DNA from: Aureimonas sp. ME7
GTDB lineage: Bacteria > Pseudomonadota > Alphaproteobacteria > Rhizobiales > Rhizobiaceae
Direction: 5' to 3'
Length of the DNA: 64,000 nt
Assembly (NCBI RefSeq): GCF_903970965.1
Contig: NZ_CAJCKW010000005.1
Location: forward strand, 186,001-250,000
Part shown: positions 46,750-52,134 of the stretch, piece by piece
How the letters are laid out: each line of letters begins with the position of its first letter
How positions within the stretch are numbered: position 1 is the stretch's first letter
The notes under the pieces: model-generated
What the model was told of the DNA's origin: nothing
What the model saw: only the letters and a program-made list of their open reading frames with translations
The model's database searches: none
Position numbers and translations under genes: made by a program

Positions 46750-46890
46750 CGGGAAACTCGGGGCGAGAAGCGGCAACCTCCGATCGATACGACGATCCCG
46801 AGCCTCCGGCAATCGACGCTTGCGAACGGCGCCAAGTTCCGTCAGATCGCTCTGAACGCATCGCTCATCCAACCCGGGACCTCGATCAGC

Positions 46891-48111
46891 ATGGCTCTTC
46901 CGCGTGACGTCAAGAAGGTCGTCCTCGCCTATTCCGGCGGGCTCGACACCTCCATCATCCTGAAGTGGCTGCAGACGGAACTGGGTGCGGAGGTCGTCAC
47001 CTTCACCGCCGATCTCGGCCAGGGCGAAGAGCTGGAGCCAGCGCGCCGCAAGGCCGAGATGCTCGGCATCAAGGAAATCTTCATCGAGGACGTGCGCGAG
47101 GAGTTCGTGCGGGACTTCGTGTTCCCGATGTTCCGCGCCAACGCCGTCTATGAGGGCGTCTATCTGCTGGGCACCTCGATCGCGCGGCCGCTGATCTCCA
47201 AGCACCTCATCGACATCGCCGAGAAGACCGGGGCGGACGCCATCGCGCACGGGGCGACCGGCAAGGGCAACGACCAGGTCCGCTTCGAGCTTTCGGCCTA
47301 TGCCTTGAACCCGGACATCAAGATCATCGCGCCGTGGCGGGACTGGGCGTTCAAGAGCCGCACCGACCTTCTGGATTTTGCCGAGAAGAACCAGATCCCG
47401 GTCGCCAAGGACAAAAAAGGCGAAGCGCCCTTCTCCGTGGACGCCAACCTTCTCCACTCCTCCTCGGAAGGAAAGGTTCTGGAGGACCCGAGCGTCGAGG
47501 CGCCCGAATACGTCCACATGCGCACCATCTCGCCCGAGGCGGCGCCCGACAAGGCGACCACGATCACCATCGGCTTCGAGCGCGGCGATGCGGTGTCGAT
47601 CGATGGGCAGCGCCTGTCGCCGGCGACCCTCCTTGCCCGGCTCAACGATCTCGGTCGCGACAACGGCATCGGCCGTCTCGACCTCGTGGAAAACCGCTTC
47701 GTCGGCATGAAGTCGCGCGGCGTCTACGAGACGCCCGGCGGCACGATCCTGCTCGCCGCTCACCGCGCGATCGAATCGATCACGCTCGACCGGGGCGCCG
47801 CGCACCTCAAGGACGAGCTTATGCCGCGCTACGCCGAGCTCATCTACTACGGCTTCTGGTTCGCGCCTGAGCGCGAGATGCTCCAGGCCGCGATCGACCA
47901 CAGCCAACGCCATGTCGAGGGCGAGGTCACGCTCAAGCTCTACAAGGGCAACGTGATGGTGACGGGGCGCTCTTCGCCGAAGTCGCTCTATTCCGACAAG
48001 CTCGTTACCTTCGAGGACGATCAGGGCGCCTACGACCAGAAGGACGCCGCCGGCTTCATCAAGCTCAACGCCCTGCGCCTGCGCACGCTCGCCAAGCGCA
48101 ACGCGCTCTGA
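46891..48111 (+). CDS. argG: Argininosuccinate synthase
   Basis: A 406-aa enzyme that joins citrulline and aspartate with ATP in arginine synthesis. The PP-loop AYSGGLDTS (13-21) is complete, as are [21 protein letters not shown] and [10 protein letters not shown]. Length and ends match the alphaproteobacterial form. It is followed 40 nt later by an unknown gene and a SecY-like gene on the same strand. Confidence 0.98.
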
Positions 48112-48151
48112 GCGCCGCGGGAGAAGGTGAAACGGAAGGCGGGCGGATCGT

Positions 48152-48583
48152 ATGGAATGGACATGCGATCCGCACGGACGTCCCAGGCTTCCAGGCATCC
48201 ACGACGCGACGCTTCGGAACCTCGATCTCGATCCCGCCGCCAACCGTCTTGCCTTTTGCCTGAACGGGGCCGCCGGCGAGCGGCTTCGCTTCACCTTCGA
48301 AGCCGTCGATACGCTGAACATCCGGCAGCTCGGGGAAGCGATGATCGTGGACACGATCTTCGTTTGGCGCGTGTCGCAGGTGCCGCCGTCCTTCGACGCG
48401 GATGCGAGCGCGGGCTGGCGGCACCTTCTGCAGGGACGCGTGCCGGAGGGCGAAGCCCAGGTGCGCGAACGCGCGCGGCTGCGGGCAAAACTGCCGAACG
48501 GCATTCTTGCGACAGTCGTCGGCAGTTACGGCGGCGAATTGTCGGTTCTCGCCGGCTCGCTGCAGATCGACGAATGGAACTGA
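48152..48583 (+). CDS. Hypothetical protein upstream of SecY paralogue
   Basis: A 143-aa soluble protein with no signal peptide or helix long enough to span a membrane. Its N-terminus GIHDATLRNLDLDPAANRLAF suggests a beta-rich fold, but I recognise no family. It lies between argG (40 nt) and the SecY-like gene (48 nt), probably one transcription unit. A role as partner or cargo of the SecY-like protein is speculation based on position only. Confidence 0.7.
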   Translation: MEWTCDPHGRPRLPGIHDATLRNLDLDPAANRLAFCLNGAAGERLRFTFEAVDTLNIRQLGEAMIVDTIFVWRVSQVPPSFDADASAGWRHLLQGRVPEGEAQVRERARLRAKLPNGILATVVGSYGGELSVLAGSLQIDEWN

Positions 48584-48631
48584 CGGTGAGCGACCCCGCA
48601 TCGAACGCCGCTGCGCGCAGGAAAGGAAGCG

Positions 48632-49729
48632 ATGGTGGCGCAGTGGAACAGTGAGGGATCGACGGCGCTCGACTGGCGCCCCGTCGCGTCCGTGGCCGTC
48701 CTCGTTCTCGTGCTTCTTCTGGGGAGCACCCTTCCCCTGCCCGGCCTCGACCCCGTCGCGTTGCAAAACTATCTGCAAGCCTCCCCGGACGGTTCGGGAC
48801 GCGTGTCCGTTCTGGCTCTCGGGTTGGGCCCGCTCCTGTCGGTTCTTCTCGTGTTCGAAACGCTGAAGCTATTCAGCCCCGCATTCTCGCGGCGGATCGC
48901 GCGTTCGCCCGGTAGCAGGGCAAAAACGGCGCTGGCGATCCGGGGGGCGATGCTGCTGGTGGCGGCGCTGCAGGGGCTCGGCATCCATGCGGCGCTGGCC
49001 GAGATGGGATTCGTCGAAAACGACCCCCTCGCCAAGCTGGCTGTCGTAGCCTCGTTGGTGGCGGGTGTTGGGGTTCTCGCTTTCGCGGCCGAGCAGGTTC
49101 GCCTGCCGCTCCTTGCCGATGCGGGCTTCTGGGCGATCATCTCGCTGCCATGGGTGGAAAGCATCGTCGCGACGTTTCTCGAACTTATGGAATACGCCCG
49201 GATCGGAGCGATCGGGCCGGAGGCCGTCGTTGTCGCCGCCGCCTGTCTCGCGGCCGCCGTCGCTTCGATCGTTTTCGCCACGACATCGCTGCGCAAGCGG
49301 GTCCGGGAAGCCGGCGGCAGCATGTTGCGGTGGAGCCCGATCCTTGTTTGGCCGCCGCTCCTGGCAGGCGCGGTTGCCAACATCCTCGCCGGACTGGCCT
49401 ACGAATTCGCCGTGACGCGGATCGAACCCACGGTCGCGCTGTATTCCGTCCTGTGGACGATCCTGTTCGCCCTGATTCTGCCAGTGGTTGTGTTTCTCTA
49501 CGCGCGCTCGATCGCCAAAACCTTCGAGGAGCCGGATTGGCCCGGTCGCCGAGCGACGCTCGCCCTTCTCGCACTCACCCAGATCGGGGTTTGCGCGGGC
49601 CTTCTGATGGCATCGGATCAGTTCGCGGTTGCTCTGAACGGCTCCGCCCTGATCACACTCGTCGTGTTCCTTTGGGCACTCGGTCAAGCGGTCTTCGCCA
49701 ATCGGGATGCGGGGCGCACCGGACTGTAG
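48632..49729 (+). CDS. Divergent SecY-family membrane protein (SecY paralogue)
   Basis: A 365-aa protein with about ten helices. Segments align by eye with SecY in the right order: LPLPGLDPVALQ (34-45, TM1-TM2 loop), RVSVLALGLGPLLSVLLVFE (57-76, TM2b), QGLGIHAAL (114-122, TM3), GVLAFAAEQ (147-155, TM4), PTVALYSVLWTILFAL (266-281, TM8) and GSALITLVVFLWALGQA (337-353, TM10). The conserved GNGxS after TM4 is replaced (ADAGFWAII), and cytoplasmic loops are short versus about 440 aa in real SecY. It is thus a derived paralogue, not the housekeeping translocon. Function unknown. Confidence 0.75.
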   Translation: MVAQWNSEGSTALDWRPVASVAVLVLVLLLGSTLPLPGLDPVALQNYLQASPDGSGRVSVLALGLGPLLSVLLVFETLKLFSPAFSRRIARSPGSRAKTALAIRGAMLLVAALQGLGIHAALAEMGFVENDPLAKLAVVASLVAGVGVLAFAAEQVRLPLLADAGFWAIISLPWVESIVATFLELMEYARIGAIGPEAVVVAAACLAAAVASIVFATTSLRKRVREAGGSMLRWSPILVWPPLLAGAVANILAGLAYEFAVTRIEPTVALYSVLWTILFALILPVVVFLYARSIAKTFEEPDWPGRRATLALLALTQIGVCAGLLMASDQFAVALNGSALITLVVFLWALGQAVFANRDAGRTGL

Positions 49730-49753
49730 ACGAGAAGGCGTCGGCGCTTGGTT

Positions 49754-50029
49754 CTATGCCATGATCGCCAGAACGGGCCGGTTGGCGACGAAAGGCTTCG
49801 GCTCGGGTTTCGAACTCTCGTCCGCCGTCATGTCGCGCAGCACGAGGCGCGCGATCACGGTTTCCGGCGTCACACCCATACGCATCGCCTTTTCCGACAC
49901 GAACTGGTGGATCTCCTTGGAAACCCGGATCCGATAGCCACCCATTTCAACCTCGACGCGTTCCCCATATCGGTCTTCAACGAGCCGGGAAACGATTTGG
50001 GTCCCTTCAAGCGGGAACCTGCGAAACAT
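49754..50029 (-). CDS. Small hypothetical protein with ribbon-helix-helix-like pattern
   Basis: A 91-aa protein. Residues about 28-66 (EVEMGGYRIRVSKEIHQFVSEKAMRMGVTPETVIARLVLRD) look like a strand followed by two helices, the ribbon-helix-helix plan, so DNA binding is possible. No family is recognised. The ATG at 50027-50029 was chosen; a TTG at 50041 would add four residues, and neither has a good Shine-Dalgarno. It is co-directional with and downstream of lctP. Confidence 0.6.
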   Translation of the reverse strand: MFRRFPLEGTQIVSRLVEDRYGERVEVEMGGYRIRVSKEIHQFVSEKAMRMGVTPETVIARLVLRDMTADESSKPEPKPFVANRPVLAIMA

Positions 50030-50164
50030 CGTGGTGACCAAACGGTAAAGGCCTGCGGTCGCTTCCGGGTTGGAAGCCTCCCATCGCAGCCGCCGGGGGA
50101 GGTTAAGAACACCTCGCTTTCCCCCAGCCTTTCCTTTCGGCAGCGACCAGGCTTGGCCTCCCGT

Positions 50165-51955
50165 TCACCGCGTTGGCGGGCCCGCCGACAGCGTCGCCTC
50201 CGGCACGAGGCTCGTGAACGGGGGTACATAGGCCTGCAGCGTCACCAGCCCGCCGACGAGAAGCGCCAGCACGACGGAATGGAGGAAGACGTAGCGCAGG
50301 ATCGGTCCTTCGCCGTTGCGCCAACCCGTGGCGGTGGAGGCGACCACGATCGATTGCGCGTCGATCATCTTGCCCATCACGCCGCCCGACGAGTTGGCCG
50401 AGGCCATCAGGACGGGGTTGAGGTTGAGCTGCTCGGCGGTGATGCGCTGGAGACCGCCGAAAAGGACGTTGGACGCCGTGTCCGACCCTGTCAGCGCGAC
50501 GCCGAGCCAGCCCAGCATCGTGCCGAACAGCGGATAGAAGACCCCGGTGTGGGCGAAGGCGAGGCCCAGCGTCGCGTCGAGGCCCGAGTAGCGCGTGAGA
50601 TAGCCGAGCGCCAGCATGATGGCGATCGTCAGGAGCGAGAAGCGGACCCGCCAGATCGTCTGGACGTAGATGCGAATGAGCTGCCCCGGGCCGAAGCCCA
50701 TCGCCAGCCCGCCGACGATCGCGGCGGCCAGGATCCCCGATCCTGTCATCGACAGGTAGTTCAGGTTGAACACCGCCGCCTCGATCACCGGCTCGGCCAC
50801 CACGGGGGGCACCTTCTGCACCGTGTTGTGCAGCCCCTCGAAGGGTATCTTCGGGGCGTGGATCCCGTCCAGCACCGCCTTCATCTGCGGAATGCCCCAA
50901 AGGAAGACGAAGACGGTGAGGATCGCCCAGGGCATCCAGGCGCGCAGCACCGCCGAGCGGTCCTCCATCATCACGGCCGCCCCGCCGCCCGTCACCGCGA
51001 TGCCGCCGCCAGAGCCCGAGCCTCCGGTGCCGCCCGTCCCGTCCACGCCGACAGGCCCGGCCGACAAGCCCATGGAGCGGCGAGCTTCCTCCTCTTCCCT
51101 CGCCTTCCCGAGAAGCGCGGTGGAGCGCCACACGGTCTTCGGGCGCCACACGCGAAGAAACGCCACGAGCGCCAGCATCGATGAGATCGCCGCGACGATA
51201 TCCACGAGCCAGGGGCCGTGGAAGTTCGAGACCAGGAACTGGGGAACGGCGAAGCTCACGCCGCAGACGAGGATCGCCGGCCAGATCTCGATCATCCCCC
51301 GCCATCCGGCGAACGCCCAGATCAGCCAGAACGGCACGAGCAGCGAGAAGAACGGAAGCTGGCGCCCGATCATCGCCGAAAGCTCGAAGAGGTCGAGCCC
51401 GGTCACGGCCGCCAGCGCGATCACCGGGGTGCCGAGCGCGCCGTAGGCGACGGGCGCGGTATTGGCGATGAGCGACAGGCCGGAAGCCGCCAGCGGCGAG
51501 AAGCCGAGGCCGATGAGGAGCGCCGCCGTCACCGCGACCGGTGTCCCGAAGCCCGCGGCCCCTTCGAAGAAGGCGCCGAAGGAAAAGGCGATCAGGAGAA
51601 GCTGGATGCGCCGGTCGTCCGAAACGCCGGCGATGGAGTTCTGCAGGATCTCGGAGGAGCCGTTCTCCACCGTCAGCCGGTGGAGGAAGATGATGTTGAG
51701 GACGATCCAGCCGATCGGCATCAGCCCGTAGGCCGCCCCGTAGCCCGCTGCCAGCGCCGCCTTGTCGGCCGGCATGCCGAAGGCAAGAACCGCGATCGCG
51801 AGCGCGGCGACGAGCCCAGCCAGCGCGGCCATGTGCGCGCGCATGTGCAGAAAACCGAGCCCCACCAGCATGACGACGACCGGCACGGCCGCCAGAAGAA
51901 AGGACAACGGCAGACTGCCGAACGGATCGTAATTCTGGCTCCAGACCGTATCCAC
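50165..51955 (-). CDS. lctP: L-lactate permease (LctP/LldP family)
   Basis: A 596-aa proton-coupled lactate/glycolate importer with about 13 helices. Signatures include [12 protein letters not shown] at the N-terminus, [23 protein letters not shown], and [15 protein letters not shown] with [18 protein letters not shown] near the end. The start is set at GTG 51953-51955 because GGAGG lies 7 nt upstream and the family N-terminus begins there; an in-frame ATG at 51973 would place that ribosome site inside the gene. A Gly-rich loop sits in the middle (about 300-330). Confidence 0.93.
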
Positions 51956-52134
51956 CCCGACGCCTCCCAACATCGCCCGGCGTCCTGTCGCCGTGGGCCG
52001 AGTGTTTCGGCAGCCTTGCGAATTTGCAACCCAAGCGTGCTCACAGCCCCGTGAACGGGAAGAAGGGGCGGGTCACCACTTCAAATGCGTCCCGCGTGCT
52101 CCCAACTGACGGGAAACGATATGGAAGCCGAACC

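Follow-up and report, generated by a model that had tools for sequence, protein, structure and literature searches.

A SecY-derived membrane protein of Aureimonas sp. ME7 represents an accessory family predicted to lack the plug and the docking loops

The window, i.e. the whole analysed stretch of 64,000 nucleotides from Aureimonas sp. ME7, contains a gene whose predicted product belongs to an accessory, SecY-derived family that appears to have lost the plug, the docking loops and most of the C-terminal tail. To judge from alignments and hydropathy, the family keeps the ten hydrophobic segments and the apolar constriction, has conserved residues of its own, is patchily distributed and is not accompanied by a common partner gene. 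SecY is essential and universal, and what is known of the roles of its plug, its ring and its docking loops comes largely from engineered mutants. The preliminary description of this DNA had proposed a check for a normal secY; the genome has one, distinct from the paralogue in the window (390 bits over positions 2–306 of the Pfam model), as well as one SecE and one SecA. The features of the locus are collected in Table 1.

Table 1. Features of the SecY-like locus, with positions in the window and, for protein segments, residue numbers of the SecY-like protein. Lengths after "versus" are those of canonical SecY.
Feature	Position	Strand	Basis or remark
argG coding region (start approximate); argininosuccinate synthase named from sequence	46888..48111	+	Match in 21 of 21 genus genomes
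143-aa orphan ORF directly upstream of the SecY-like gene	48152..48583	+	Coding-like composition
Stretch missing in 4 of 7 sister genomes from the interval between argG and the gene for a luciferase-like monooxygenase	48150..52110		75–113 bp there
Ribosome-binding site AGGAAAGGA, 4 bases 5' of the SecY-like ATG	48619..48627	+	Read from sequence
SecY-derived membrane protein, predicted plug-less and loop-less with ten TM segments, 365 aa	48632..49729	+	Profiles, alignment, hydropathy
PLPGLD, residues 35–40, conserved SecY motif after TM1	48734..48751	+	Alignment
ASPDGSGR, residues 50–57, remainder of plug region, 8 versus 20 residues	48779..48802	+	Alignment
GFW, residues 165–167, replaces canonical NGIS stretch	49124..49132	+	Alignment
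TM6-7 cytosolic loop remnant, residues 219–235, 17 versus 31 residues	49286..49336	+	Alignment
WPP, residues 240–242, start of TM7, Trp at E. coli Ile275 position	49349..49357	+	Alignment
TM8-9 cytosolic loop remnant, 19 versus 40 residues	49502..49558	+	Alignment

The open reading frame starts with ATG and shows the codon-position GC pattern of a coding frame (0.70/0.49/0.78). The SecY profile search that had been suggested as a check gave matches to Pfam SecY (E 3.1e-6, 27.2 bits, residues 59–298) and to TIGR00967 (E 4.3e-8, 32.4 bits), although both lie under the curated cut-offs, the former under the gathering cut-off of 32.2 and the latter far under 253.6. The top PDB sequence match was 3dl8_G, a SecY (E 1.8e-9, residues 24–222), and in single-sequence searches the likeness to SecY is found mainly across the first two thirds of the protein. 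A profile of the relatives, built without canonical SecY, was aligned to a profile of canonical SecY with hhalign; the alignment covered TM1 to TM10 in 342 columns (E 2.6e-38), and the C-terminal half alone gave 7.1e-7, both E-values being those of a single comparison. Hydropathy yielded 10 hydrophobic segments, as did the same script for E. coli SecY, and the loops expected to be cytosolic are positively charged (positive-inside, from hydropathy and loop charges). Pfam SecY was matched by 22 of 30 family members at E ≤0.01. No YidC family was matched by the window protein in Pfam, where SecY was the sole listing at E ≤10. The gene had been described as a full-length SecY paralogue that keeps the SecY landmarks in order from TM1 to TM10, and the profile alignment, the ten hydrophobic segments and the retained PLPGLD motif bear this out. 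It had also been placed next to argG; argG does lie upstream, but the 143-aa ORF stands between the two.

The missing parts were mapped by aligning 39 relatives, the window protein included, with 16 canonical SecY sequences (15 from the same order and that of E. coli K-12). The plug region (E. coli 55–74, 20 residues) is reduced to 6–9 residues in all 39 relatives, and in the window protein the plug proper (E. coli 60–74) is gone. This loss had been overlooked in the preliminary description, as had that of the C-terminal tail, which is short and unlike the canonical one (11 versus 23 residues; the median across the relatives is 9 versus 23). Within PLPGLD, Pro37 is conserved in all 31 thinned paralogues. 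The loss of the GNGIS motif, noted earlier, holds: the residue equivalent to E. coli Asn185 has changed, and Trp stands at the Ser188 position. The same is true of the loss of the long cytosolic loops, since TM6-7 and TM8-9 are joined by remnants. The position of E. coli Arg357 in loop 8/9 is deleted in the window protein and empty in 37 of the 39 relatives, and that of Arg256 in loop 6/7 is empty in 38; one early-branching protein, L048p, has both loops at full length. Loops 6/7 and 8/9 dock SecA. According to PMC4737761, both loops of E. coli SecY, including R357, also touch the ribosome. With the docking loops missing, ordinary co-translational or SecA-driven work is unlikely, and the view that the protein does not serve ordinary SecA-driven export is thereby supported from the anatomy.

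In PMC4148884 the ring residues of SecY are given as I86, I191 and I278, and an engineered plug-less SecY, with residues 60–74 replaced, is reported still to close under voltage. The ring positions 86, 191 and 278 are mostly apolar in the relatives as well (Leu, Phe, Trp, Val or Met). Conservation was counted in 31 of the 39 relatives; the other eight, six near-duplicates plus L047 and L048p, which branch early, were set aside. Two Trp residues stand out: one at the E. coli 188 position (27 of 31; Ser in all 16 canonical SecY) and one at the 275 position (30 of 31; Ile in all 16). Further marks of the family are Gln380 (27 of 31) and Arg334 (26 of 31). The window protein has 7 of the 8 family-mark positions, and L178, which lies outside the set that defined the marks, has 5 of 8, including both Trp and Gln380, with Arg334 among the three that it misses. 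Positions 188 and 275 precede ring positions 191 and 278 by three residues and, by helix periodicity, probably lie one helical turn to the cytosolic side of the ring. The pore might be sealed by the hydrophobic ring together with the two new Trp one turn below, which would replace the plug. The new conserved residues Trp188, Trp275, Gln380 and Arg334, in or beside the membrane core, would also suit a channel or transporter exapted for non-protein cargo; this is very unlikely, given that the constriction is mostly apolar and that no transport gene is kept alongside across the loci.

In both trees a single branch separates the relatives from the remaining sequences (support 100/99 and 98/96). 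The first to branch off are copies from another family of the order, where two genera have them; they were found in 2 of 198 genomes at E ≤1e-100, a threshold at which more diverged tandem copies would be missed. Both loci (L048:5422-7961 and L146:6007-8534) lie in the ribosomal-protein operon in the order secY, copy, adk, rpsM, rpsK, rpoA, where the start of the copy overlaps the end of secY and adk was named from sequence. Neither tandem copy carries the Trp marks of the family, and the two loops are present in each. The plug region of L048p has 6 residues; that of L146 has 4 in the fixed-length alignment and about 10 in the raw sequence, and is thus reduced rather than plainly gone. L047, which branches next, has a short plug and short loops and no Trp. 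The branching suggests an order of change in which the plug would have gone first and the loops second, with the Trp residues appearing last. A tree that groups the tandem pair with its family's normal secY was not rejected (p-AU 0.645), and as long branches are joined in the trees, the tandem pair and the rest may be separate duplications. With 258.1 against the NCBIfam SecY cut-off of 253.6, the L146 copy may be a working SecY; L048p stays below the cut-off (224.6).

The gene is under selection. Estimates of dN/dS (NG86 and YN00 in Biopython, point values only) were below 1 in 16 of 16 pairs of copies; pairs from one group are not independent. The 10 pairs from Stappia-type and Agrobacterium-type loci gave 0.15–0.71 (NG86) and 0.12–0.39 (YN00), and the 11 neighbour-gene pairs computed gave 0.03–0.13 and 0.03–0.10, respectively; at the Stappia-type loci neighbours were within reach in 1 of 6 pairs. 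Six Shinella pairs gave 0.36–0.74 (NG86) and 0.28–0.56 (YN00); the N-terminal part of the Shinella frames shares sequence with the gene upstream, which it overlaps, and the highest value comes from two strains with very few changes. The SecY-like gene is faster-evolving than its neighbours and not neutral. A decaying secY duplicate without function would account for the fast divergence, for the absence from most relatives and for the broken copies, i.e. a frame of 86 aa (G408), one of 246 aa (G466) and a truncated copy of 181 aa on a Rhizobium tumorigenes plasmid. Such a fate is highly improbable and already largely contradicted: the frame is at least 347 aa long at 36 of 36 loci (some genomes counted twice) and at 5 of 6 plasmid loci, dN/dS is below 1 throughout, and the new residues are conserved even though most relatives are less than 30% identical to the window protein.

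With open-frame length and identity as criteria, a full or partial copy is present in 16 of 297 genomes from the family, that of the window among them, and the G408 frame is an additional fragment in this set. In the order, the matches listed point to a copy in at least 9 of 297 genomes. Within three genera the presence is patchy (11 of 39, 4 of 14 and 2 of 21 genomes), and the size of the family is a lower bound, as the searches with the SecY-like protein scored the approximately 8000 candidates with most shared words. Carriers include Jiella mangrovi, several Agrobacterium species, Rhizobium skierniewicense and Stappia indica, and copies on plasmids or chromids occur in Sinorhizobium sp. RAC02, Shinella and Rhizobium tumorigenes. 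A class-wide scan of 385 genomes at E ≤1e-38, a strict threshold that gives weak evidence of absence outside the order, listed, besides the window's own, matches that were all frames of canonical length. The only other copy in the genus of the window (G1200) is 34% identical and lies on a contig different from that of argG. Three of the seven sister genomes do not have the short junction given in Table 1; they have about 2.0–3.5 kb between argG and the monooxygenase gene, which match the window by a piece of the lactate permease gene only. No SecY-like protein was found elsewhere in the seven sisters at E ≤1e-8. As the stretch is missing in sisters, the SecY-like gene, like the 143-aa ORF, was either gained here or lost there. 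The same stretch holds a 95-aa ORF without a Pfam match (49754-50041, minus strand), between the SecY-like gene and the lactate permease gene.

The preliminary description had suggested that the SecY-like gene and the 143-aa ORF may form a two-gene module for membrane translocation or insertion. The two genes are on the same strand with a gap of 48 bp, and both lie within the stretch absent from sister genomes. The 143-aa protein, however, has no relative but itself among 5.8 billion proteins (172 candidates scored), and a co-occurrence survey in 297 genomes of the family, proposed as a check, gave as sole match the protein itself in the window's own genome. Relatives were likewise missing from the flanks of 32 other loci with a SecY-like gene and from 26 other loci compared side by side (plasmid loci are outside both sets). 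As a general module the pair is contradicted, and we give the proposed partnership next to no likelihood.

When 27 loci were compared side by side with three genes on each side, no gene recurred in distant loci; ABC-type genes and a few pairs belonging to broad families were exceptions, and close relatives share synteny. An AGE-family epimerase-like gene lies downstream of the copies in Shinella (L181, annotated) and Agrobacterium (L004, by sequence likeness), possibly an old shared synteny. At L134:1064-2208 (G312) an IS3-type transposase (integrase core) is found near the SecY-like gene. In two genomes (L138, 5959-7083, G361; L139, 5956-7041, G502) the SecY-like gene, on the opposite strand, is flanked by the portal and capsid genes of a phage-like cluster, possibly a gene-transfer agent; the Pfam hits come from L138, and L139 has DUF6107. 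The IMG/VR contig L186 is colinear with L139, and its copy is 72% identical to the G502 relative. This relative also matched the Acinetobacter phage records CAKLQH020000003.1 and CAKLQF020000004.1 (22% identity over 47% of the length, annotated secY). Six plasmid records were matched by the Agrobacterium rubi relative. On plasmids, the Shinella copy is near DKNYY and YcxB genes, and that of Sinorhizobium sp. RAC02 is near an annotated YcxB gene (without a Pfam match) and a TsiV match below the cut-off. For the window's own copy a phage or plasmid home was rejected: the window protein had no match in phages or viral contigs, and a plasmid search with another query, P0002, had none either.

These surroundings bear on a possible role in biological conflict, in which a SecY mimic would protect the cell as a decoy, an immunity factor or an exclusion factor; its targets would be toxins or phages for which SecY or the inner membrane is a tool or a point of attack. 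The copies inside the phage-like capsid clusters, the YcxB, DKNYY and TsiV-like neighbours on plasmids, the patchy presence and the fast change with raised dN/dS would all fit, and SecY is a known receptor of some CDI toxins (PMC11630599). We nevertheless regard it as unlikely, since immunity-like neighbours were seen at plasmid loci only, among the neighbours scanned, many loci have ordinary metabolic neighbours, and the most SecY-like part is the core, the exposed parts being lost. Moreover, PADLOC families matched none of five proteins (four family members and the 143-aa protein) and PHROGs neither of two family members, and a label as defence gene or phage protein was rejected.

We tentatively favour, as a reading that falls somewhat short of probable, a repurposed SecY that would form a small, constitutive site in the membrane, dock neither ribosome nor SecA, and hold or insert short membrane segments. 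A duplicate of secY would have lost the plug and later the docking loops and then been repurposed, and the remaining core would serve a limited set of substrates or partners. The groove of the lateral gate may help to hold or insert certain short segments, in use nearer to YidC than to SecY. This insertase role is inferred from the parts missing and the parts kept, and the rival roles together outweigh it. The genome has one SecE and the loci have no dedicated partner gene, so that the protein would share SecE, SecG or YidC, or work alone. The single SecE, together with a TM core that is kept while the docking loops are lost, could also point to a regulator or sink that would bind SecE (or SecG, YidC) with neither ribosome nor SecA involved and so adjust how much active translocon there is; this is quite unlikely, as a pure sink would not need the conserved region of the pore ring.

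Compared with housekeeping SecY (TIGR00967/PF00344), the window protein shares the full-length homology, the ten hydrophobic segments, PLPGLD, a mostly apolar constriction and the NG..LI of TM10, but it has neither plug nor full docking loops, its tail is short, it has Trp at positions 188 and 275, its gene is outside the ribosomal operon and its score is far below the NCBIfam cut-off. Accessory SecY2 is likewise an extra SecY beside the normal one, in a Gram-positive system with SecA2. This assignment was rejected, as the window protein scores far below the model cut-offs (15.5 bits against 249.6 for TIGR02920, 15.8 against 353 for NF009082) and the genome has no second SecA. With YidC/Oxa1 insertases the likeness is in the proposed way of working only; the two-half SecY sequence and the lack of a YidC-family Pfam match set the protein apart. 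The engineered Sec-delta-P (PMC4148884) also has the plug region removed, but it is a laboratory deletion of the plug alone, whereas the window family is predicted to be without plug and loops by nature. A plug-less proto-SecY is called plausible in PMC8675477; the window family resembles this hypothetical ancestor as a set of plug-less SecY-derived proteins under selection and differs from it in that it appears to derive from modern full-length SecY and not to be ancestral. The preliminary description knew of no system of such make-up, and a plug-less, loop-less SecY family was not described among the matches listed in the open-licence literature.

The family provides an extant, derived case of a SecY relative predicted to lack the plug. 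A wider reading of the same alignments and trees, which we consider doubtful, is that natural plug-less, loop-less descendants of SecY would be stand-alone insertion or holding devices that use neither ribosome nor SecA and are sealed by the Trp pair, that they retrace the plug-less state proposed for the SecY ancestor, and that intermediates survive behind secY in the ribosomal operon. The natural series, with plug and loops dropped in most members and loops present in the secY-adjacent copies, lends itself to testing the purpose of each part, as well as the tightness and usefulness of a SecY-like channel that has no plug. Current annotation loses these genes: the Stappia indica copy carries two labels, 'hypothetical protein' and 'Preprotein translocase subunit SecY', and each of the three plasmid copies with an annotation is a 'hypothetical protein'. 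The truncated copy of 181 aa on the Rhizobium tumorigenes plasmid (L185:3950-4495) is annotated in this way.
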